From: Acidimicrobiia bacterium
GTDB taxonomy: Bacteria > Actinomycetota > Acidimicrobiia > Spongiisociales > Spongiisociaceae
DNA: 64,000 bases
Direction of reading: 5' to 3'
Assembly (NCBI GenBank): GCA_009841105.1
Contig: VXMM01000018.1
Location: 1-64,000, forward strand
Made by a program: the position numbers and the translations under genes. Below the pieces are notes generated by a model, which saw nothing but the letters and a program-made list of their open reading frames with translations, was not told the DNA's origin and did no database searches. Positions within the stretch are counted from its first letter, which is position 1, and each line of letters opens with the position of its first letter. This document shows, piece by piece, positions 52,769-64,000 of the stretch.

Positions 52769-52861
52769 CTACAGGCCGAGCAACTGGACTGCGAACACGA
52801 TCCCGGCCACGCCGATCAAGGCCAGCAGGATCAGCAACGTGATGGCGGTTCCGGACCTCAC
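52769..52861 (-). CDS. 30-residue single-span membrane peptide of the cbb3-like cluster
   Basis: GTG 52861 overlaps the stop of the cytochrome c gene (GTGA) and the frame ends with TAG at 52771-52769. After a short MRSGT start, the rest is one hydrophobic helix (AITLLILLALIGVAGIVF...). Position and size recall small accessory subunits (CcoQ, CcoH-like) of cbb3 oxidases. Too short for standard calling; the translational overlap is the main support. Confidence 0.6.
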   Translation of the reverse strand: MRSGTAITLLILLALIGVAGIVFAVQLLGL

Positions 52862-53811
52862 GGTACCTCGGGTTCGGCGAATCCGCAGTCGAACACCGCT
52901 TCCTCGACGTCCTGTCCCCCCAGAACCACGCGTTCGTAGAACACCACGGTGGCGATCTCCTGGGGCGTCAGGGTGTCATTGAAGGAGGGCATGACCCCGC
53001 CCGAACCCACCGTGGTACCGGCGTCACCGTAGGTGTTCCGGCCCGCGCCGAGGAAGCCGTCCGTTCCGAGCGAGACCCACTCGATGTGGTCGGTGCACAT
53101 CGAGAAGGTGTCCAGCAGCGTGCCTGCCAGGGCTGGACCGGAGCCGCCCTCGCCGCTTGCTCCGTGGCACGAGCTACAGCTGGAGGGCGCCGCGTACAGG
53201 GCGCTGCCCTCGCCGACCAGCGCGCGGACATCCACGCCTCCGGCTGCGCCGCCCGCCTTATAGACGGAGCCGTCGCAGTTCTCGACCAGGCCGGTAAGGC
53301 GGTCGACGGAGAGTTGGCCGCCCGCGCCGCAGTTGGCGCCACCCGCGAAGGCGATCAGATACGTGAGGCCGATGAGCGGGACAGCGAAGAACAGCACGGT
53401 CAGCCAGCGGGGCAGCGAGGCGGCAACCCGCTCGGTGAGGCCGGCGGTGGCGCCGGTGACAACCGCCTCGAACCGATGGGCCTCGGCGAGGGTCACCTGC
53501 TCGGGCGCAGCAGGGCTTCCGACCGCGGTGGCCGCCATCTCAGGAGCGGGTACCACTGGAGCGCTGACCGGCTCGGGAGCTTCAGGTGAGGCAGGGGGGG
53601 CCGGGGTGGCAGCCGGTGCCGGTTCCTCGCTGGGCGGAGCGGTGGTAGCCGGCGCCGGGGCGCCGGACGGAGGCGCCGTTCCGCCTGCCCACGCCGCCAG
53701 GACCTCCTCCGGACTTATGCCGTCGGCCTCGGCACGCGCGATGGCCGATCGTTCCACCAGATGCTCGGGGGCATCCATCGCGGCGGCCGCGGCGGCGATG
53801 AGCTCGTTCAC
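52858..53811 (-). CDS. Monohaem cytochrome c, CcoP-like, with N-terminal docking-like module
   Basis: 317 residues from GTG 53811. Residues 1-45 are a helical module (IAAAAAAMDAPEHLVERSAIARAEADGISPEEVLAAW) also found in two other respiratory proteins here, followed by about 70 residues rich in Pro and Ala. A transmembrane helix (WLTVLFFAVPLIGLTYLIAFA) lies near residue 145, then a cytochrome c domain with CSSCH. The distal Met is probably in VMPSFND. Located between the CcoO-like gene and the 30-residue peptide gene in the same operon. Confidence 0.8.
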   Translation of the reverse strand: MNELIAAAAAAMDAPEHLVERSAIARAEADGISPEEVLAAWAGGTAPPSGAPAPATTAPPSEEPAPAATPAPPASPEAPEPVSAPVVPAPEMAATAVGSPAAPEQVTLAEAHRFEAVVTGATAGLTERVAASLPRWLTVLFFAVPLIGLTYLIAFAGGANCGAGGQLSVDRLTGLVENCDGSVYKAGGAAGGVDVRALVGEGSALYAAPSSCSSCHGASGEGGSGPALAGTLLDTFSMCTDHIEWVSLGTDGFLGAGRNTYGDAGTTVGSGGVMPSFNDTLTPQEIATVVFYERVVLGGQDVEEAVFDCGFAEPEVP

Positions 53812-53848: not shown

Positions 53849-54664
53849 CTACTTCAGCTCCGACAGATAGGTGGCGAGAGCAGTGAGGTCATGATCGGAA
53901 AGATGCGCGTACGACGGATGGTTCCCGGACGTGAGCACGCTATCAGGGGTTGACAGCAGGATGATCAGATCGTCTGCGGTCACCGTCCCTGCGTCGCCCC
54001 CGTAGGCGGTCCGGTTACCCACATGGGCCAGGTCGGGGCCGATTCGCTGTACACCGAAGGTGGCAGTGTCCAGTGAATCGGCCCAGCTCTCGGTCACGGG
54101 TCCGAGACCGACGTCGGCGAGGACCGGTCTCACCAACTGGGTGTGGCAGTAGCCGCACCCCTGTTTCGAGTAGACGGCCCGGCCCTGGTGGCCGAGGGCG
54201 GACAGGGGGGCGTCTGGAACCACGTGCCGGGAGTCTCCTCCGGTGTTGTAGGGGCCGACCAGCGCGATGACGAGCCCGACCACGAACAAGCCCGCCATCA
54301 TGATCCACGTCCGCAACGGATGTAGCTTCACGCCCGTTAGGCGGGGCGTGGCCTTGCTGAGCGCCGGTGGCGCAGCTGGGGGCGCCGGTGAAGGGGATGC
54401 CGGGGCCGGAGCCACTGCCACGGCGGCGGGCGCCGGCTCGGGTGCGAGCGCCGCCGGAGGGGCCTCTGGGGTACCGGACGCGGCCGGCGGCGTCCGGGGC
54501 TCGGGAGCTGCTGTGGGCGCGGGGAGCGGAGCGCCCCCGCCCCATGCCGCCAGCACTGCCTCGTAGGTGGTCCCGTCAGCCTCGGCGCGGGCCAGGGCTG
54601 CTCGCTCCACCAGGTGTTCGGGTGCCCCGAGCGCGGCCGCCGCGGCGGCGAGCTGGTCACTCAT
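53849..54664 (-). CDS. Monohaem cytochrome c, CcoO-like, with N-terminal docking-like module
   Basis: 271 residues; ATG 54664 overlaps the upstream CcoN-like gene by 8 bases. Residues 1-42 repeat the helical module (LAAAAAALGAPEHLVERAALARAEADGTTYEAVLAAW), then a Pro/Ala-rich linker to about 105. After one transmembrane helix (TWIMMAGLFVVGLVIALVG) comes GRAVYSKQGCGYCHTQLVRP, a haem-binding site typical of CcoO, and RIGPDLAHVGNRTAYGG. It should relay electrons in the cbb3-like complex. Confidence 0.82.
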   Translation of the reverse strand: MSDQLAAAAAALGAPEHLVERAALARAEADGTTYEAVLAAWGGGAPLPAPTAAPEPRTPPAASGTPEAPPAALAPEPAPAAVAVAPAPASPSPAPPAAPPALSKATPRLTGVKLHPLRTWIMMAGLFVVGLVIALVGPYNTGGDSRHVVPDAPLSALGHQGRAVYSKQGCGYCHTQLVRPVLADVGLGPVTESWADSLDTATFGVQRIGPDLAHVGNRTAYGGDAGTVTADDLIILLSTPDSVLTSGNHPSYAHLSDHDLTALATYLSELK

Positions 54665-56105
54665 CGTCTCGGGACTCCACCGGCACCAACATCTCGACCG
54701 GACGGGCACTACCCGAAACGTAGGTTCCCAGGGCCGCCCATACCATCAGGGCGATCCCGACCAGTGCGACGACCGAGGCCAGAGCTCCCACCGTGAACAT
54801 CACGTCCACGTCGGCGAGGGTGTCCGAGAAACCCGTCCCCGCATTGAGCCGCGAGCCCGAAGCGTTAGCCCAGTTCCAGGTGATTCCCGACACCAGGCCT
54901 GCGATCAAGAACGCCGCGGCCGTGATGCCGCCGCCCCAGGTCAGGAGACGGAGCCCCCGCTCGGCCGTCTCCTCGCTGGCGAGGTCCCGTCCCGTGGTCC
55001 GTGGGAAGGCATGGAATATGAATGCCACACCGAGCGCGGGTATGGCGACCAGAGTCGAGCCGATCATCAAGCCTTCGTGCCACGTGGTCAGACCCAGCAC
55101 GGCGGCGACCGACCGGAAGCCGGAGATGCCAGTGAGGATCGTGACCAGGGTGTAGGCCGTCGCTCCGACCATCAGGTACCGGATCACCACGTTCCGGCGG
55201 GCGTTTTCCCAGTCCCCCGACAGCGTCTGGCCGAGGTTGGTCATAACCGCCAGCGCGGCGATCATGAGCCCCATCGCCGCGGCCGCCGCCACAGTCTCCG
55301 TCCAGTCCGGGGCGGGACCGCCGAGGAACCTGGTCGGCGTGGACAGCAGGGCTGTGCCGGCCAGGGTCCAGAACCCGGCCCGGGCGAGGGGTCCGGAGAA
55401 CAGCGGCCGGCCGCTCTCCTTGACCAGCACGTAGTAGGCGCTCCCGAGGGCGGCGGCCGGGAAGGCCAGCCAGAGCATCCCGTTGGCCACCAGGCCGGTC
55501 TGCAGGAACGGGCCGACACCTTCTAGGCCGGGGATGCTGCCCGTGATATGCAAGGCCGGGTACCACCAGACCGCCCCGAGGACATAGAGGGTGGAAACGA
55601 AGACCCCATCCTCGGTGCGGTGGCGGAGCATGGAGGTGACCAGGACGGGGGGTAGGAGCAGCAGGGCGGCGAGCGGCCAATCGATAAGTGGGGGGAACTC
55701 GGCGAGTTCGGGTCCGGACGGGCCCCGGAATAACACCGCCAGCACGCCAAGCGTCACAAGACCGGCATAAGCGAGGCCGCCGAGCAGCGCCGTCGGCTGG
55801 CGGGGCATCCGGGCGCCGACCAAGCGGGGGATCAGGAAGTAGGCCATGGCCTGGGTGAGGGTTCCGCCGAACCCGTAGATCAGCATCAACATGGCGGCGG
55901 GCCGGAGGCGCCCGTATGCCAGGAACTCGCTATCGGCGAATAGGGTGGGGATCGCCAGCTTGATGAGCATCAGCACCAGCAATCCGGCGCCGGCCAACAG
56001 CAACAGGCAGGTTACGGCCATGAGACCGGACGCCGCCCACTCCTGGCGGTCAGCCTGGAAGGGATCGAGCGAGCCCTGGTCCGTCGTGGAATCGTCCTGT
56101 GTCAA
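54657..56105 (-). CDS. CcoN-like haem-copper oxidase subunit I homologue lacking most metal ligands
   Basis: 482 residues with about 12 helices; GRLRPAAMLMLIYGFGGTL, GSAYYVLVKESGRPLFS and HAFPRTTGR show it belongs to the cbb3 (C-type) family. In CcoN the second-helix haem ligand sits in RPLHxNA; here the segment is RPAAMLM. The CuB histidines (GHNAVGF and PHHLHY regions) read ANGMLWLAF and TPTRFLGG, and in the IGHVHSG segment only one His (TTWHEGL) may remain. So oxygen reduction is unlikely. It is coupled with CcoO- and CcoP-like cytochromes and probably acts as a membrane scaffold or haem-free partner. Confidence 0.8.
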   Translation of the reverse strand: MTQDDSTTDQGSLDPFQADRQEWAASGLMAVTCLLLLAGAGLLVLMLIKLAIPTLFADSEFLAYGRLRPAAMLMLIYGFGGTLTQAMAYFLIPRLVGARMPRQPTALLGGLAYAGLVTLGVLAVLFRGPSGPELAEFPPLIDWPLAALLLLPPVLVTSMLRHRTEDGVFVSTLYVLGAVWWYPALHITGSIPGLEGVGPFLQTGLVANGMLWLAFPAAALGSAYYVLVKESGRPLFSGPLARAGFWTLAGTALLSTPTRFLGGPAPDWTETVAAAAAMGLMIAALAVMTNLGQTLSGDWENARRNVVIRYLMVGATAYTLVTILTGISGFRSVAAVLGLTTWHEGLMIGSTLVAIPALGVAFIFHAFPRTTGRDLASEETAERGLRLLTWGGGITAAAFLIAGLVSGITWNWANASGSRLNAGTGFSDTLADVDVMFTVGALASVVALVGIALMVWAALGTYVSGSARPVEMLVPVESRDDE

Positions 56106-56388
56106 CCCGATACCCCTCGCGACCTCATCGCTGCCTGACCGGCATAGGTTAAACGCTGCGTGGAGGGGGCTTGGTCGCCCCTTCGTTCGATGCGCAAAGG
56201 CTCCTCGTAGTGTCGTCGCGAGGCCCGTTCCGCTGTGGCGTGCGGTTTAGGGAGAGCCGGCCTTTCTGCCACAATGGGGGCGGCCCGATTCGGCAGAGCC
56301 CGCTGCCGCGCCATCCGGCGGATCAGAGGTGGCGGGAGCGGTGTCGGGCCGGCCGCGGGTCGAGACGATACGGAGGCGAACTACCGAG
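56106..56388. promoter_or_regulatory. Divergent promoter region of the two respiratory clusters
   Basis: 283 bases between the CcoN-like gene (minus) and the b6f-like cluster (plus). Both operons must start here. No clear Rex-type TTGTGA...TCACAA pair was recognised, although Rex is encoded at the end of the cluster. Confidence 0.45.
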
Positions 56389-57162
56389 ATGGTGCAACGG
56401 ATGCTCCGGCAGATGAGCGGCACGCAGCGTGCACTCGCCGGCTGGGGGCTGTTCATCGTGGGTCTCTTCACCCTGGTGCTGGGCATTTGGTTCAACCATT
56501 ACGCCAACTTCCCATCCGTTGAGACGGTGACCATCGCCACAGAGAGCGCCGCGGGGCTGGGCGCCGGTGACTCGGTCATGTACAACCGCCAGGCGCGTAC
56601 CGTGGCCGCTACCCCGGTCATCAACCCCGACCTGCCGCAGACCCCGGTGGATCTCGAGGTCCGGGTGGACTACTTCGGGTGGGTACCGCGGGATTGCTTG
56701 ATCTCGGGGAGCGACTGGTGCCTTCCGTGGTTCGCTTTGGGCCACCTGGTGGCGTTCGGCGGGAGCCAGCTGATGTTGCTCGGTATCGCCGTTGCCGTGC
56801 TCCTCGGACGTAGGATGACCTGGTCGTTGGCTGCGCTGGCGGCCTTCCTAGCCATGATGGAGTTGGTGATCCTGCTGGGTACGGTGGCATCCGAGTGGCT
56901 CAACCTGGCCCAGGGGCCTCTCAACTGGACCGAGCAGAACGACGCGTTCACCATCTGGGCGCCCCTCGTGCTGGGGAACAACGTCGGAATCAGCTGGGGC
57001 GCCATCAAGGACTTCATCTCCATCAACTACAACATGGGGGCGCTGACCTTTATCATCCTGTTCGCCCGCTGGATACAGAGCTTCGGCGGGCCGATGCCGC
57101 AAGCGCGCACCGCCGAAGCGGTCTCACCCTACGGACGCCCGCTGGTAAAGGGAGCCGAGTAG
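56389..57162 (+). CDS. Integral membrane protein of the quinol reductase cluster, unknown family
   Basis: 257 residues from ATG 56389 (CGGAGG upstream; GTG 56329 would add 20). About five helices with a periplasmic loop after the first (GLGAGDSVMYNRQARTV..., DYFGWVPRDCLISGSDWC with two cysteines), and the remaining ones at 120-240. It directly abuts the ferredoxin gene, being the first gene of the cluster. It may anchor the ferredoxin to the cytochrome complex or bind quinone. No family recognised. Confidence 0.6.
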   Translation: MVQRMLRQMSGTQRALAGWGLFIVGLFTLVLGIWFNHYANFPSVETVTIATESAAGLGAGDSVMYNRQARTVAATPVINPDLPQTPVDLEVRVDYFGWVPRDCLISGSDWCLPWFALGHLVAFGGSQLMLLGIAVAVLLGRRMTWSLAALAAFLAMMELVILLGTVASEWLNLAQGPLNWTEQNDAFTIWAPLVLGNNVGISWGAIKDFISINYNMGALTFIILFARWIQSFGGPMPQARTAEAVSPYGRPLVKGAE

Positions 57163-57618
57163 ATGGCGAAGTCTGAAGTCTGGTTCGAGACCCCGCCCTT
57201 CCGTGACGACTACCAGTTGGTCATGGTCGATACGGACTACGTCCAGGCGCAGGTGCGTCCCAAGCAGTTTCTCCATATCAACCAGTCTGAGTGCATCCTC
57301 TGCGAGGGATGCGTCGACATATGCCCCTGGAAGTGCATCCACTACCTCTCGCTGGATGCTATCGACGAGGCCTACGACGTGGATCACCCGTCCGATAGCG
57401 CTGACAACCTGGGCTTCTTCGTGGTCGACGAGTACGAGTGCACCCGTTGCGCGCTCTGCATCGATCGCTGTCCCACCAACGTCATTTCCCTCGGTAAGTT
57501 CGAGGGTTCGGTGTCGGACACGGCCATGAACGCCGGTCTGGTCGAGCGTGCCCCGTGGGACCTCGACACCGGCGCCCGCGACTTCAAGAACGGGTACACC
57601 TACGGAATGCGTTGGTAG
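57163..57618 (+). CDS. 2[4Fe-4S] ferredoxin-type protein
   Basis: 151 residues. Two full CxxCxxCxxxCP motifs: [15 protein letters not shown] near residue 45 and [12 protein letters not shown] near 93, with an insert of about 30 residues between them, as in NuoI-like proteins. ATG directly follows the previous stop. In a quinol:cytochrome c reductase cluster this would allow low-potential electrons to enter or leave the complex, an arrangement not found in standard bc1 operons. Confidence 0.85.
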
Positions 57619-57634: not shown

Positions 57635-58405
57635 ATGTTGAACGGCGGTTTGAAGGTCAGGGAGCGGGTCGGCGAGGCGGCCGACGCCTTCCGGGCAAGC
57701 CCCTTCTGGGAGTCGATGTTCCGTCCCGGATCGCCCTTCAAGCGGGGCTACAGCGACAGCCCCCGCAACCGGTCCTACGTGATCATGAACAACGTTCTCT
57801 ACCACCTGCATCCCGTCAAGGTGAAGCGCCATGCCGTGCGGCTCTCCTACACCTTGTGCCTGGGCGGGCTGAGCTTCTTCCTCTTCATCCTGCTGACCAT
57901 CACCGGCATATTCCTGATGTTCTACTATCGGCCCACCGCCCCGGCCGCCTACATCGATGTCGAGGCTCTCTCCACCTCGGTCGCCTTCGGCTCGCTAGTG
58001 CGGAACCTGCACCGTTGGGGCGCGCACCTCATGGTGCTGACCGTGTTCCTCCACATGTCCCGGGTCTTCTATCACGGCGCCTACAAGCCGCCCAGGGAGT
58101 TCAACTGGGTCGTTGGGGTGGTTCTGCTGCTCCTCACCCTGCTGCTCTCCTTCACCGGATACCTGCTGCCCTGGGATCAGTTGGCGCTGTGGGCGGTGAC
58201 GGTGGGAACCAACATGGCGGGCTTCACACCCATGTTCGGAAACCAGGTGAAGTTCGCCCTGTTGGGGGGTATCGAAGTTACCGGCAACACGCTGCTGCGC
58301 TTCTACGTGTTGCACGTCCTGTTCCTACCGTTCGTGATAGTCATCTTCATGGCGGTGCACTTCTGGAGGGTGCGCAAGGACGGCGGCATATCGGGACCGC
58401 TGTAA
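57635..58405 (+). CDS. Cytochrome b N-terminal half (b6-type)
   Basis: 256 residues from ATG 57635 (GGAGGAAGAG upstream). Four helices with two haem-binding pairs: His in LHRW and FLHMSR, 13 residues apart, and His in VLHVLF and AVHFWR, 14 apart, the spacing of b6-type proteins rather than bc1. A basic N-terminus and amphipathic helix precede. It oxidises (mena)quinol at the Qp site with the Rieske protein and passes electrons through the two b haems. Split from its C-terminal half, as in b6f complexes. Confidence 0.9.
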
Positions 58406-58551: not shown

Positions 58552-59442
58552 ATGGCTCAGATACCAGATCATCTACTCCGACGCTCGGCCGAGGCGAAGG
58601 CCAAGGCGCTCGGCATCCCGGTCGAGCAGGTCCTGGCCGAGATGCGAGGCGAGACGCCGCCCCCTCCAGCGCCCACGTCTCCTCCTCCTTCATCCCAGGC
58701 GCCCGCGCCGCCGCCTCCGGCCCCTGCCGCCGTTCCGCCACCCCCGGCTCCGCCCGAGGCCCCGGTGTCCCCACCGCCATCCGAAGGAGCGATAGGGGTC
58801 GCGGCGGAGACTCCTGAGGTGACGCCAGCCACCGTTCCTCCACCGGTATCGGACAACGGCGGGGGAGCGACGCAGGTCACGCTCCGGCCGGTGGCGCCAC
58901 CCGAAGAGGTTCCGGAAGGGGTTCGGCCGCAGCGTCTCCTCACCGTCGTCAAAGCCAAGGCCATCCAGCAGGTCAAGGCGACGCCCACTGACAAGGTCAA
59001 CACCTGGCCCCACCTGATGATCGCCGAGTTCTCCGCTCTGATGGTGATCACGGCGGTACTGATCGTCCTGTCGGTGATCCTCCAGGCGCCGTTGCTGGAG
59101 TTGGCCAACTTCAACGCCACACCCAACCCCTCCAAGGCGCCCTGGTACTTCCTAGGCTTGCAGGAACTGCTGTCCTATTACGACCCCCAGGTCGCCGGCG
59201 TGATCATCCCGACCATCACCGGTCTGTTGGGCTTCATGGCGATTCCGTATGTGGACCGCAACCCCTCCACCAAGCCCTCCGACCGCAAGTTCGCCATTAT
59301 GTTGTTCACCCTGTTCCTCACTGGCTCGGCCACCTTGACGTTGCTGGGAACCCTGTTCAGGGGCCCCGGCTTCAACTTCACCTATCCATGGGCGGACGGG
59401 ATCTGGTTCGACGACCTCAAGGACTGGGTGCACTTCGAATGA
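58552..59442 (+). CDS. Cytochrome b C-terminal half (subunit IV-like) with N-terminal docking-like module
   Basis: 296 residues. Residues 1-35 (IPDHLLRRSAEAKAKALGIPVEQVLAEMRG) resemble the module of the two cbb3-like cytochromes, then about 85 residues of Pro-rich linker. After residue 150 come three helices with NPSKAPWYFLGLQELL, corresponding to the subunit IV quinol-site region where PEWY is replaced by a P-W-Y variant (KAPWY). It completes the quinol-oxidising site with the N-terminal half. Its ATGA overlap with the Rieske gene supports coupling. Confidence 0.85.
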   Translation: MAQIPDHLLRRSAEAKAKALGIPVEQVLAEMRGETPPPPAPTSPPPSSQAPAPPPPAPAAVPPPPAPPEAPVSPPPSEGAIGVAAETPEVTPATVPPPVSDNGGGATQVTLRPVAPPEEVPEGVRPQRLLTVVKAKAIQQVKATPTDKVNTWPHLMIAEFSALMVITAVLIVLSVILQAPLLELANFNATPNPSKAPWYFLGLQELLSYYDPQVAGVIIPTITGLLGFMAIPYVDRNPSTKPSDRKFAIMLFTLFLTGSATLTLLGTLFRGPGFNFTYPWADGIWFDDLKDWVHFE

Positions 59443-60356
59443 CCACCGTCCAGATCCTGATCGTCGCCCTCTCCGCCATCGTCCTCGCGGGTGTCCTGGG
59501 TGCTTTCGTCATCGCCTACCGCCGCAGCGAATCACCCGGCCGGCCCGCCCGATCGTGGAGATCCGGCCTGTCGCGCGAGACGCGCAAGGCCGACCGGTCG
59601 GCCCTGGCCGCTCCGGTGGTGGTCCGGCCCGCCGAGACCCTTGCCGACGAGGCGGCGGAGGTTGCGGCGACGGCGGCGATGGCCCCGGAGGAGGGCATGG
59701 AGGAGGAGTCCGAGGAACCGGTTGCGGCCATGCAGGCTGTCGAAGTGATGCGGGTGGAGGAGCTTTCCCCCCAGGAGGCAGGCGTCAACCGGCGCCAGTT
59801 CTTCACCAGGGCACTCGGGGCCACCTTCGGCGCCTTCGTGGGTCTTAACGGGATCTCATACCTGGCCTTCCTCTGGCCTCGCCTGTCGGGTGGGTTCGGG
59901 TCCGACATCGACGTGGGAGCCATTGCCGACCTCCAGACCGAGGTGGTTCTCAACGACGGCTCCATCTTGCCCAAGTTCGTGCCCGAGGCTCGCGCCTACA
60001 TAGTGCCCTTTGCCGAGTCGGACATCTCCCGCTCCCAGTTCGAGGGTTCGGGGGTGGTGGCCGGTGGATTGACCGCCCTGTTCCAGCGCTGCGTGCACCT
60101 CGGTTGCCGCGTGCCTTGGTGCGACGCCTCCCAGGGTTTCGAGTGCCCCTGCCATGGCTCGAAGTACAACTACGTGGGGGAGTACGAGGCGGGTCCCGCC
60201 CCCCGCAACCTGGATCGGTTCGCGGTCGAGATCCAGAACGGCCGTCTCATCGTGAAGACCGGCACCATCATCCAGTCGGCCCGGGCGATCGCCAAGACCG
60301 TGCAATACCCCCAGGGCCCTTCCTGTATAGCCCTGAACTCCCCCACGGCGGTATAG
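59439..60356 (+). CDS. Rieske [2Fe-2S] protein
   Basis: 305 residues. An N-terminal helix (ILIVALSAIVLAGVLGAFVIAY), a long acidic/Ala-rich linker (about 50-115), a second helix region with twin-Arg-like NRRQFFTRALG, then the Rieske domain with CVHLGC and CPCHGSKY binding the cluster by two Cys and two His. The NRRQFF segment suggests Tat insertion. It accepts the first electron from quinol at the Qp site and passes it to the dihaem cytochrome c encoded next. Confidence 0.9.
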   Translation: MTTVQILIVALSAIVLAGVLGAFVIAYRRSESPGRPARSWRSGLSRETRKADRSALAAPVVVRPAETLADEAAEVAATAAMAPEEGMEEESEEPVAAMQAVEVMRVEELSPQEAGVNRRQFFTRALGATFGAFVGLNGISYLAFLWPRLSGGFGSDIDVGAIADLQTEVVLNDGSILPKFVPEARAYIVPFAESDISRSQFEGSGVVAGGLTALFQRCVHLGCRVPWCDASQGFECPCHGSKYNYVGEYEAGPAPRNLDRFAVEIQNGRLIVKTGTIIQSARAIAKTVQYPQGPSCIALNSPTAV

Positions 60357-60359
60357 CAG

Positions 60360-61808
60360 GTGTCAACCCTCGTCGTCACGGTAGTTGCGCTGGGAGCGAT
60401 CGCCTGGTTCGCCTACCTGGTGGGATCAGGGTCGCGCCGCGACCGCCAGGACCCGGTGCCCGCCAACCTGTCCGTTTCCCAGACCGACGATGAGTTGGAG
60501 ACCAGGAGGCTCGATCGAGCCCTGGTGGGTGCAGTGGTGACCGCCGGGTTTCTCACCCTCGCCATGCCCATCTACTACCTCACCGAACTGGACCGCCAAG
60601 AGGGGTTCGTGGACGAGTTCTACCAAGCTTCTCTGGTCCGTGGCCACGAGGTGTGGCTGGAGTTCGGCTGCGGCGACTGTCACGGCGCCAACCTGGCGGG
60701 CGGGGTGGCTTCCTTCCTGGAGGAGCGTTCCCAGGTGAACGTGGCCGGCTGGGCGACGCCTGCGCTGGACGACCTGTTCTACCGGTATGACAGGGACGAG
60801 GCGGAGTTCTGGATCACCTACGGCCGGGCCAACACGCCTATGCCGCCCTGGGGTCTCGATGGTGGCGGCCCGCTCAACAGCCAGCAGATCGAGGATCTCC
60901 TCAACTACATCGAGTCGCATCAGGTCGACCAGACCGCGGCCCTGCTCAAGGTTGAGGGTCTGGTGGCAGGCGCCTTGAGCAGGCGGGGAGGCGCCGCCGA
61001 TGTGGTGGACACCCAGATCGTCGAGCAGGAGCAGCTGATCGAGACGATCCGCACCTCCGGGACCTCCTCGGCGGCCCTCGGCGATATAGCGGAGCGAGCC
61101 CGGTACTTGCTGGACGGAGCGGCAGACGGTATCGACACCGACGGCGACGGCCTGTCTGACGTCACCGAGACCGGCCTGACCGCCATCTTCGCCGAGGCAC
61201 ACGCTGCCGGATACCTGGCCACGGCGGTCACGCTCGACCCGCGCAACGCCGAGACACTGATCGGGATCGGCGACGCCACCTCGGCGGCCACCTCTGTCGG
61301 CGACCTCGAATCGGGCGCGACCTCCCTGACCATCACCTTCCAGAACCAGGACGTCCTGGGAGAGCAGGCCCGGTTCGGCCTCGGCTTCCTCCAGGACGCG
61401 GCCCGACGGGCCCACTGGGAGGTGGGTGTCCAAGCGGTGGCCGATGCCTCCTTCGGAGGGGACGCCGACGCGGCGGATCGCGCGGTGAACCTCTACAACG
61501 CTTACTGTGCCCGCTGCCACACGGCCGGCTACTCGGCCGGTCCCGCCTTCCAGCAGCCCCAGGGCTCCGGGGCGCTGGGACCGTCGCTGCGGGGTGGTCG
61601 CGCGCTCACCCAGTTCCTGACCGCCGATGACATGTACGAGTTCATCGCGGTAGGGTCGACCTCCGGTCAGGGCTACGGGGTCAACGGCGTGGGCTCGGGC
61701 CGGATGCCCGGTTTCGGCATGGTGCTGTCCGCGGAGGACCTCGATCTCATCGTCCGGTACCTGAGGGGGGCGACCCTGGACGGATCCGAGTATCTGGAGG
61801 CCGGCTGA
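60360..61808 (+). CDS. Dihaem cytochrome c of the quinol reductase complex
   Basis: 482 residues from GTG 60360. N-terminal helix, then a second helix near 60 (VGAVVTAGFLTLAMPIYYL), haem site CGDCH near 101 and a second haem site CARCH near 383. Between them is DTDGDGLSDVTETG, a calcium-binding type-3-like repeat. The distal ligands are probably in TPMPPWGLD and RMPGFGMVLS. It takes electrons from the Rieske protein, replacing cytochrome c1/QcrC. The long domain between the haems has no recognised enzyme motif. Confidence 0.87.
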   Translation: MSTLVVTVVALGAIAWFAYLVGSGSRRDRQDPVPANLSVSQTDDELETRRLDRALVGAVVTAGFLTLAMPIYYLTELDRQEGFVDEFYQASLVRGHEVWLEFGCGDCHGANLAGGVASFLEERSQVNVAGWATPALDDLFYRYDRDEAEFWITYGRANTPMPPWGLDGGGPLNSQQIEDLLNYIESHQVDQTAALLKVEGLVAGALSRRGGAADVVDTQIVEQEQLIETIRTSGTSSAALGDIAERARYLLDGAADGIDTDGDGLSDVTETGLTAIFAEAHAAGYLATAVTLDPRNAETLIGIGDATSAATSVGDLESGATSLTITFQNQDVLGEQARFGLGFLQDAARRAHWEVGVQAVADASFGGDADAADRAVNLYNAYCARCHTAGYSAGPAFQQPQGSGALGPSLRGGRALTQFLTADDMYEFIAVGSTSGQGYGVNGVGSGRMPGFGMVLSAEDLDLIVRYLRGATLDGSEYLEAG

Positions 61809-61809
61809 C

Positions 61810-62163
61810 ATGCGCGAACTCTTCAGAGCGCTGCTCTCACAGAACTTGCTGTTCACAGGGATCGTGCTGACCATCGCGGCGGTGCTCGTGTTCTTCGGGA
61901 GCGTCTACCTCCTGCAGTACACGAACCTGGGCAAGCGTCTCGCCATCCTGGTCTCGGGCGCCGGGATCTTCGGTTGGACGACGATCAATTCGATCCTGTT
62001 CGTCCTCTACGCCCCCCGCGGGCCTCGCCCTGTCGACTTCGAAGGGCTTAACGCCTTCGAGATACGGATCATCCCCGGAGCCTTCGCAGCCGCCTCCGCC
62101 ATCCTTTTCGCCATGTTTATGGTGGCGCTCCACCGCTACGAACGTGACCAGGAGCGCGAATAG
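61810..62163 (+). CDS. Small three-helix membrane protein at the end of the quinol reductase operon
   Basis: 117 residues starting one base after the dihaem cytochrome stop. Three hydrophobic helices (LLFTGIVLTIAAVLVFFGSVYLL, LAILVSGAGIFGWTTINSILFVLY, FAAASAILFAMFMVALHRY) and charged ends. Likely a structural subunit or assembly factor of the complex. No family recognised. Confidence 0.65.
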   Translation: MRELFRALLSQNLLFTGIVLTIAAVLVFFGSVYLLQYTNLGKRLAILVSGAGIFGWTTINSILFVLYAPRGPRPVDFEGLNAFEIRIIPGAFAAASAILFAMFMVALHRYERDQERE

Positions 62164-62179: not shown

Positions 62180-62794
62180 TCAGGTCATGTAATAGCCGAG
62201 GATCTGGAGTTCGGTAGCAAGGTCCACCTGTCTCAGATGGATGTCATCGGGTACCTGGAGGACAGTGGGGGCGAAGTTCAGGATGGAGGGCACCCCGGCC
62301 TCGACCAGCATGGTCGCCACCTGCTGAGCGGCCCCCGCCGGGGTGGCGATGATCCCGACTGAGATATGCGTGGTCCGGGCATCGTCGGGTAGCCGGGAGA
62401 TGTCGCGAACCTCCACCCCACCCAGGTGGGTCCCGATCTTCGTGGGAGCGGCGTCGTAGAGGCCGACGATGCGAAAGCCCCGGTTACCGAAACCGGTGTA
62501 GTTGGCCAGCGCAGAACCCAGGTTGCCGATGCCCACCACCGCCACCGGCCGATCCGCGGTCAGCCCGAGGGCATGGCGGATCTGGTCATTGAGTTCCTTG
62601 ACCCGGTAGCCGACCCCGCGGATCCCGAAGGTCCCGAGGTAGGAAATGTCCCGCCGGACCCCGGCCGCGGTCAGATTGCTCAGGCGGGCCAACTCGCGGG
62701 AGGAGATGGTCGACTGCGATGGGGGTAGCCGCTCTATGCATCGCAGGTAGCGCGGCAGGCGCTCGACCGTGGCCGACGGAAGGTCCGACTTCAT
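62180..62794 (-). CDS. rex: Redox-sensing transcriptional repressor Rex
   Basis: 204 residues from ATG 62794; the longer frame to 62932 overlaps the S41 gene start. Winged helix (TISSRELARLSNLTAAGVRRDISYLG) then the Rossmann domain with VVGIGNLGSALANY and the swapped C-terminal helix. Rex senses the NADH/NAD ratio and represses respiratory and fermentative genes when NADH is low. Convergent with the quinol reductase operon, which is a natural target. Confidence 0.9.
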   Translation of the reverse strand: MKSDLPSATVERLPRYLRCIERLPPSQSTISSRELARLSNLTAAGVRRDISYLGTFGIRGVGYRVKELNDQIRHALGLTADRPVAVVGIGNLGSALANYTGFGNRGFRIVGLYDAAPTKIGTHLGGVEVRDISRLPDDARTTHISVGIIATPAGAAQQVATMLVEAGVPSILNFAPTVLQVPDDIHLRQVDLATELQILGYYMT

Positions 62795-62913
62795 CGGCGA
62801 GAGGTTAACGGCGTCAGGGAGGGCCGAATCCGCCCCGACTTCTTGCCGTGGGCAAGACAGTTGCAGCTCGAGGCGGTACCGAGGTACCACCCGGAGAGGA
62901 CTATCGTCGGCGT

Positions 62914-64000
62914 GTGTCGACCCGGTACCCATCGGTGACGAAGCCAGCCGGAGTTGCCTGGAAGCGCTCCGGGACCCGTCTCGTCATCGCCGTGATCGCT
63001 CTGTCCCTGCTAGTTCCCGCACCACTTGCAGCATCCGTGGAGCCCGAGGGGCATCTGTCGCGGACCGCCCAGACCGATGGCGCACACGGAGCCGAGGCAG
63101 TCCCGGCAGGCCGGGTGACCTGCGAAGAGGCGCCGACGGTCTTCGAGGTGCTTTGCATCGTGTACCGCCTGATCAGCGCAAACTATGTGGACGCGGTAGA
63201 CGATCAGGAACTCGCCTCGGCGGCCACCGAACGGGTGAGAGAGGCCGGCCTCGCCGAACGGACCGATGGAGAGCCACCGGCATGCCCGTTGCCTTCTTCC
63301 GAGTTCGAGGAGCTGTGCCAGGTGATCGACCGGGCACAGGACACCGCCGCGGCGGTCGGGGAGGCGGTCCGGGGGATGGCCGGGTCGCTCGACCGCAACT
63401 CCCGCTACCTGACCGCCGCGCAGTACAACCGGTTCCGGACGAACCTCGAGAACCGGGGCACCAGCGGTCTGGGTGTCGCGTTCGCTCTGGTGGAGTACGG
63501 CCGGCCCTGCCTGACGGTGACGGCCACCTGCCGACCGGTGGTTGCCGAGGTGTATGCGGGAAGCCCGGCGGAAGGGGCCGGTCTCATGGTGGGCGACGAA
63601 CTCCTGGAATTGGGGGATCGGTTCCCGGCCGAACTCGGTTGCGCGGACGTGTCCCGCCTTGACCGGTTCGCGGCGGGTGAGGATGTGTCGATCACGGTCC
63701 GGCGGGACGTGATCCTGAGCGGGACGATCAGGGCGGCGCGGCTGGCCATACCGGTGGCCAGGGGAATGGTCGTGGACGGCAACATCGGCTATCTCAGCCT
63801 CGACGTCTTCAGTTCCACGGCGGACGGCGCGGTGGCAGAGGTGCTGCGCGAGTTGACCCACCCGCCTATCAGCGGCCTCGTGCTGGACTTGCGCGGCAAC
63901 CCTGGCGGGTACATCGACTCGGCGGTGGGCACCGCAGGCGCCTTCCTACCGGACCTGGCGACGATCGTTCACCTATTGAGCAGGGACAGCTTGGAGACCG
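62914..64000 (+). CDS. S41-family (C-terminal processing) peptidase, 5' part
   Basis: 362 residues are visible, starting at GTG 62914 and running off the window. After a signal-like helix (RLVIAVIALSLLVPAPLAAS) come an N-terminal segment with LDRNSRYLTAAQYN, a PDZ domain (GTSGLGVAFALVEYG, then VYAGSPAEGAGLMVGDELLEL) and the start of the catalytic domain (GNIGYLSLDVFSS, LVLDLRGNPGGYIDSAVG). Ser and Lys of the dyad lie beyond the edge. Exported protease of the Ctp type; divergent from rex. Confidence 0.8.
   Translation, partial: MSTRYPSVTKPAGVAWKRSGTRLVIAVIALSLLVPAPLAASVEPEGHLSRTAQTDGAHGAEAVPAGRVTCEEAPTVFEVLCIVYRLISANYVDAVDDQELASAATERVREAGLAERTDGEPPACPLPSSEFEELCQVIDRAQDTAAAVGEAVRGMAGSLDRNSRYLTAAQYNRFRTNLENRGTSGLGVAFALVEYGRPCLTVTATCRPVVAEVYAGSPAEGAGLMVGDELLELGDRFPAELGCADVSRLDRFAAGEDVSITVRRDVILSGTIRAARLAIPVARGMVVDGNIGYLSLDVFSSTADGAVAEVLRELTHPPISGLVLDLRGNPGGYIDSAVGTAGAFLPDLATIVHLLSRDSLET

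Follow-up and report, generated by a model that had tools for sequence, protein, structure and literature searches.

A CcoN-like protein without haem or copper ligands is encoded beside a b6-type complex III operon in Acidimicrobiia

Few respiratory proteins have been studied as much as subunit I of the haem-copper oxidases, which is usually recognised via its invariant histidines. The 64,000-nucleotide stretch of Acidimicrobiia DNA analysed here (the window) encodes a protein, hereafter N, that a preliminary description had read as a cbb3-type subunit I with five of its six ligand histidines replaced. Does such a protein still reduce oxygen, and if it does not, for what is it kept? The gene for N lies between those of two c-type cytochrome partners, O and P, and a divergent operon encoding a complex III (Table 1).

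Table 1. Positions in the window of the genes for N, its partners, the neighbouring complex III and a convergent regulator
Feature	Position	Strand	Basis
P, membrane-anchored mono-haem c protein	52858..53811	-	PF13442, 33.3 bits
O, CcoO/FixO-like mono-haem c protein	53849..54664	-	PF02433, 45.2 bits; alignment to 6xkw_o
N, CcoN-like subunit without any haem/CuB ligand, 482 aa	54657..56105	-	PF00115, phmmer, hhalign
M277, membrane protein of no known family, first operon gene	56329..57162	+	conserved in order and class
Ferredoxin-like protein, two 4Fe-4S motifs	57163..57618	+	PF00037, two stretches
Cytochrome b6-type subunit	57635..58405	+	PF00033, 161.9 bits; start inferred from aligned extent in relatives
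Subunit IV-like C-terminal half of cytochrome b	58552..59442	+	PF00032, 30.7 bits
Rieske iron-sulfur protein, CxH...CxxH present	59439..60356	+	PF00355, 30.8 bits; start inferred
Di-haem cytochrome c of complex III	60360..61808	+	PF13442/PF00034
M117, small membrane protein	61810..62163	+	conserved in place among relatives
Rex-like redox-sensing repressor, convergent	62180..62932	-	PF06971 and PF02629

By its sequence, N is a full-length homologue of CcoN. The open reading frame, which opens with a TTG start codon, matches PF00115 with 81.2 bits over residues 29–420 (cut-off 34.8) and so belongs to the haem-copper oxidase superfamily fold. The sole PDB matches of N found by phmmer are cbb3 CcoN chains (E down to 3e-20), and profile–profile comparison with a set of C-type subunits by hhalign gives E = 2.1e-63 across 425 columns. 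N shares with CcoN the many-helix membrane hydrophobic profile and the GRLRP, PDW, FPRTTGR and W motifs, and its partners are CcoO-like and CcoP-like; the fold and the motifs reported in the preliminary description are thereby confirmed. Against the curated ccoN model TIGR00780, N scores 123 bits (E = 1.6e-35), far under the equivalog cut-off of 583. AlphaFold2 runs with only six near-identical sequences as input gave a pLDDT of 34 for N and 46 for M277, and no usable fold.

The major difference from CcoN is that N lacks all six haem and CuB ligands together with the active-site tyrosine. The ligand histidines of CcoN align with A71 and I348 (low-spin haem b), L346 (haem b3), and N208, T258, and R259 (CuB) in N. 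These columns are concordant across the phmmer alignments to solved CcoN, a MAFFT alignment of 58 relatives, and the 425-column hhalign alignment; ligand loss as first described is therefore correct, but the count rises from five to six. N contains only four histidines (162, 186, 343, and 365), none of them conserved in the N family, which rules out the possibility, raised at the outset as the refuting case, that the six ligands occur in shifted positions. The tyrosine column of the YIWAGPHH motif, which we take to be that of the cross-link tyrosine of CcoN, is alanine in N and A, G, W, or S in the family. The N family alignment has no column in which His, Cys, or Met is conserved, making a substitute haem site unlikely and suggesting that N binds no haem and probably carries no redox centre. 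N could alternatively hold a haem or another cofactor via non-histidine ligands and retain a redox or proton-moving role, and the preserved fold with its many buried aromatic and charged residues would agree with this. Nevertheless, with zero conserved His, Cys, or Met, with ligand positions that vary freely (A/G/S/F, L/I/V/T), and with the cross-link tyrosine column lost, such a cofactor is improbable.

Relatives of N occur in 113 of the 138 genomes of the order, and the full ligand set is kept in none of the 58 aligned from it. Among 37 ligandless tree representatives, histidine occupies a single one of 222 ligand-position cells (in L054). A search beyond the order with a profile built from 30 ligandless relatives recovered further ligandless sequences in family f12 of the same class, which comprises streamlined marine-type genomes of ∼1.1 Mb, in two further families of this class, and in five genomes that belong to other classes of the phylum. 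The window lineage, sister to f12, probably corresponds to order UBA5794, neighbour of Actinomarinales (PMC12008989). Columns invariant across nine ligand-bearing C-type sequences were then scored in the ligandless set: 0.4% of cells in the seven invariant histidine columns keep the residue, against 48% in the 51 other invariant columns, indicating that the catalytic residues of N were lost selectively. The scaffold residues PDW, FW, YY, GRLRP, W, and G are retained in the family. The alignments make ligand loss a trait of a large, old family and no local accident.

The dN/dS ratio of N, measured against five close relatives, is 0.14–0.22, indicative of purifying selection, and the frame is intact in most genomes of the order. 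The weak score against curated ccoN might be read as the mark of a decaying or misread gene. This reading is exceedingly improbable in view of the open frames, the dN/dS ratio, the conserved neighbours, and the presence of the gene in streamlined 1.1 Mb genomes; the frames and the ratio refute pseudogene status. N does evolve faster than cytochrome b6, for which dN/dS is 0.01–0.06.

A second complete oxidase, which the preliminary description had proposed to look for, is encoded on another contig of the window genome. It is a caa3 set comprising COX1 (517 bits), COX2 with a fused cytochrome c, and COX3, and caa3 COX1 is also present in the N-bearing genomes checked. Neither N nor its family has a haem or CuB ligand, and the genome has its own complete caa3 oxidase; the sequences thus give good support to the earlier suggestion that oxygen is no longer reduced by N. 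A third COX1-like protein, found in genome G138 (L152), turned out to be no relative of N.

The ligand-bearing C-type proteins nearest to N come from the same phylum (L139–L142 and L144–L146); all read HHHHHH at the ligand positions and branch with cbb3 CcoN (support 97/91). They resemble N in having FixO-type c partners and a similar subunit I score against the N profile, but differ in their complete ligand set, their own branch, partners with two to five c-haems, and surroundings that, as far as read, have no adjacent b6 complex III. They could be oxygen or NO reductases. Their FixO is fused to one or four more cytochrome c domains, giving two to five CxxCH motifs. Monophyly of the ligandless N sequences (p-AU 0.48) is compatible with the data, yet this value is no positive demonstration of it.

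The partners of N had been described as keeping their haem sites, which holds in part. O, whose start codon as read from the sequence overlaps the N stop codon, retains the haem motif GCGYCHTQLVRPV (CxxCH = CGYCH), but alignment to 6xkw_o shows the axial methionine of CcoO-type haem replaced by histidine (NHPSY). P resembles CcoP in the C-terminal domain only; VMPSF is present, but P has one CxxCH whereas CcoP has two c-haem domains, which sets it outside CcoP proper, and its match to PF14715 (FixP_N) is 18.6 bits, under the cut-off of 24.9. Across loci L003–L036 and L131–L134, the axial residue of O is histidine in the window lineage and f12, methionine in families f4, f5, and f7, and glutamine in L020–L022. 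The glutamine in some relatives suggests that the haem of O may itself be in the process of degeneration. N and O form one fused protein in f4, f5, f7, and genome G142 (most genomes read).

The operon diverging from N across a gap of 224 bases runs M277, ferredoxin-like protein (two 4Fe-4S), cytochrome b6, subunit IV, Rieske protein, di-haem cytochrome c, and M117. The combination of cytochrome b, subunit IV, Rieske protein, and cytochrome c in a single operon identifies a complex III of the b6f/bc type. Its cytochrome b is b6-type, matching b6 in the PDB with E = 3e-47 versus 2e-21 for mycobacterial QcrB, and is the sole PF00033 protein found in the window genome, which is 97.5% complete. M277, a constant member of this operon with the motifs SEWLNLAQGPLxW and LVLGNxVxISWGAIKD, gave no match in a Pfam search. 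The Rex-like gene is the convergent neighbour of the cluster in most of the order. A search of the divergent N/M277 promoter for the Rex operator TTGTGA-N6-TCACAA found none beyond chance, and a sigma-70 promoter scan of the cluster found nothing.

The gene order P-O-N followed by the divergent M277-Fd-b6-IV-Rieske-cc-M117 recurs throughout the order and in f12. Co-occurrence was tabulated by hand for the 110 genomes of the order whose completeness reaches 80%; b6 was scored as present at E < 1e-90, and a weak match in G051 was left out. N and b6 are both present in 86 genomes and both absent from 16; four have N only and four b6 only (Fisher p = 3e-12). In all eight discordant genomes, contigs end at the cluster. 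Several of the genomes that have neither (G047, G049, and G050) also lack any COX1. Genomes of other classes likewise have N-O near the ferredoxin, b6, subunit IV, and Rieske genes (L135 and L137). Most of the class encodes this complex III but neither N nor O, and in many cases a diverged P persists next to M277. A sister order (G158 and others) has this complex III and P while N and O are absent, which means that N is dispensable for complex III itself. The most economical history would start from an ancestral set of N-O-P and complex III, with N and O lost later in some lineages. The neighbourhood and co-inheritance signal fits a physical subunit and an assembly factor alike.

With all ligands lost and the gene adjoining those of the sole complex III, N is probably a scaffold for electron carriers and no oxidase. 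The probable lack of a redox centre makes a scaffold in or beside complex III likelier, with electron transfer via O and P only. We thus propose, with a probability of roughly 0.55, a role for N as a haem-free membrane scaffold and for N-O-P as an accessory module of the b6-type complex III. N would be a non-catalytic, haem-free C-type haem-copper oxidase fold kept to hold the c-haems of P and O over the membrane. Menaquinol would be oxidised by cytochrome b6, subunit IV, and the Rieske protein, from which electrons would pass to the di-haem c subunit, then reach the c-haems in P and O, and exit to the Cu(A)/cytochrome c domain of caa3, whose genes lie elsewhere. We infer that N-O-P assembles physically with complex III and that electrons flow through it in this direction; the module may possibly bridge to caa3. 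Weighing against this scaffold proposal are the divergent arrangement of the N-O-P and complex III genes, which are not co-transcribed, the faster evolution of N relative to cytochrome b6, the sister order that has this complex III but no N or O, and the glutamine at the axial position of the O haem in some relatives.

The same divergent arrangement favours a free-standing N-O-P complex for electron relay or for the assembly of c-type cytochromes, its adjacency to complex III reflecting co-regulation only. In other classes N-O-P indeed lies by genes for ResB/ResC and CcmF (cytochrome c maturation) and for complex I. A free-standing complex sits poorly with the near-perfect co-inheritance with b6 complex III in the order, with the persistence of P next to M277 even after N and O are lost, and with the N-terminal extensions common to P and subunit IV, and we consider it unlikely.

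Docking of a CcoN-like subunit on a complex III has a structural counterpart in the engineered bc1-cbb3 supercomplex of R. capsulatus, where the interface to cytochrome b consists of TMH8/9 of CcoN and a helix of CcoP (PMC7876108). By analogy with these contacts, docking of N-O-P on complex III is plausible. The R. capsulatus assembly differs in that its CcoN is an active oxidase while N is ligand-free, and in that the complex III here is b6-type and has an extra ferredoxin-like subunit.

A duplicated oxidase core subunit that, like N, has lost its haem ligands is CydA' of the CydAA' bd-type complexes, whose fold is unrelated to that of N. The two cases also differ in that for N the whole partner set would have switched its association to complex III.

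The proposed role within complex III can be compared with one in which N chiefly links complex III to caa3 within a III/IV supercomplex and O and P act as the wired cytochromes, a functional analogue of the actinobacterial bcc-aa3 organisation. In genome G147, N (L130:8593-10737) has an added C-terminal cupredoxin domain and lies directly upstream of the caa3 genes (COX2-cytochrome c, COX1, and COX3), facing the complex III operon; this arrangement is the only direct hint of a link between N and complex IV. The presence of caa3 COX1 in the N-bearing genomes checked and of a b6-type complex III in place of QcrCAB would also fit. As caa3 is on a separate contig in the window genome and the linkage occurs at one locus only of those read in detail, bridging as the chief role of N stays a tentative reading, although it is somewhat more credible than a free-standing complex.

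On a broader level, we see about an even chance of a single ancient conversion in which the core subunit of a haem-copper oxidase became a structural subunit, free of haem, of a b6-type complex III or III/IV supercomplex that belongs to the ordinary respiratory chain of a large actinobacterial lineage. A large family under selection, with fold kept and ligands gone, would mean that the haem-copper oxidase fold is reusable as a scaffold. It also means that a 'ccoN' annotation in these genomes is no proof of cbb3 respiration. No earlier report of a ligand-lacking CcoN or of such a complex III in Acidimicrobiia was found in the open-access literature searched, and the locus offers what looks like an undescribed complex III architecture of abundant uncultured marine and sponge-associated bacteria.

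The N-terminal extension of subunit IV resembles the N-termini of O and P. The cytoplasmic motif PEHLxERSxxARA... is common to these three proteins and to an unassigned membrane protein near caa3 genes (L149:2721-3977). In the distant genome G455, P and subunit IV have another type of extension, which is alike between the two; in distant genomes the extensions of P and subunit IV change together.
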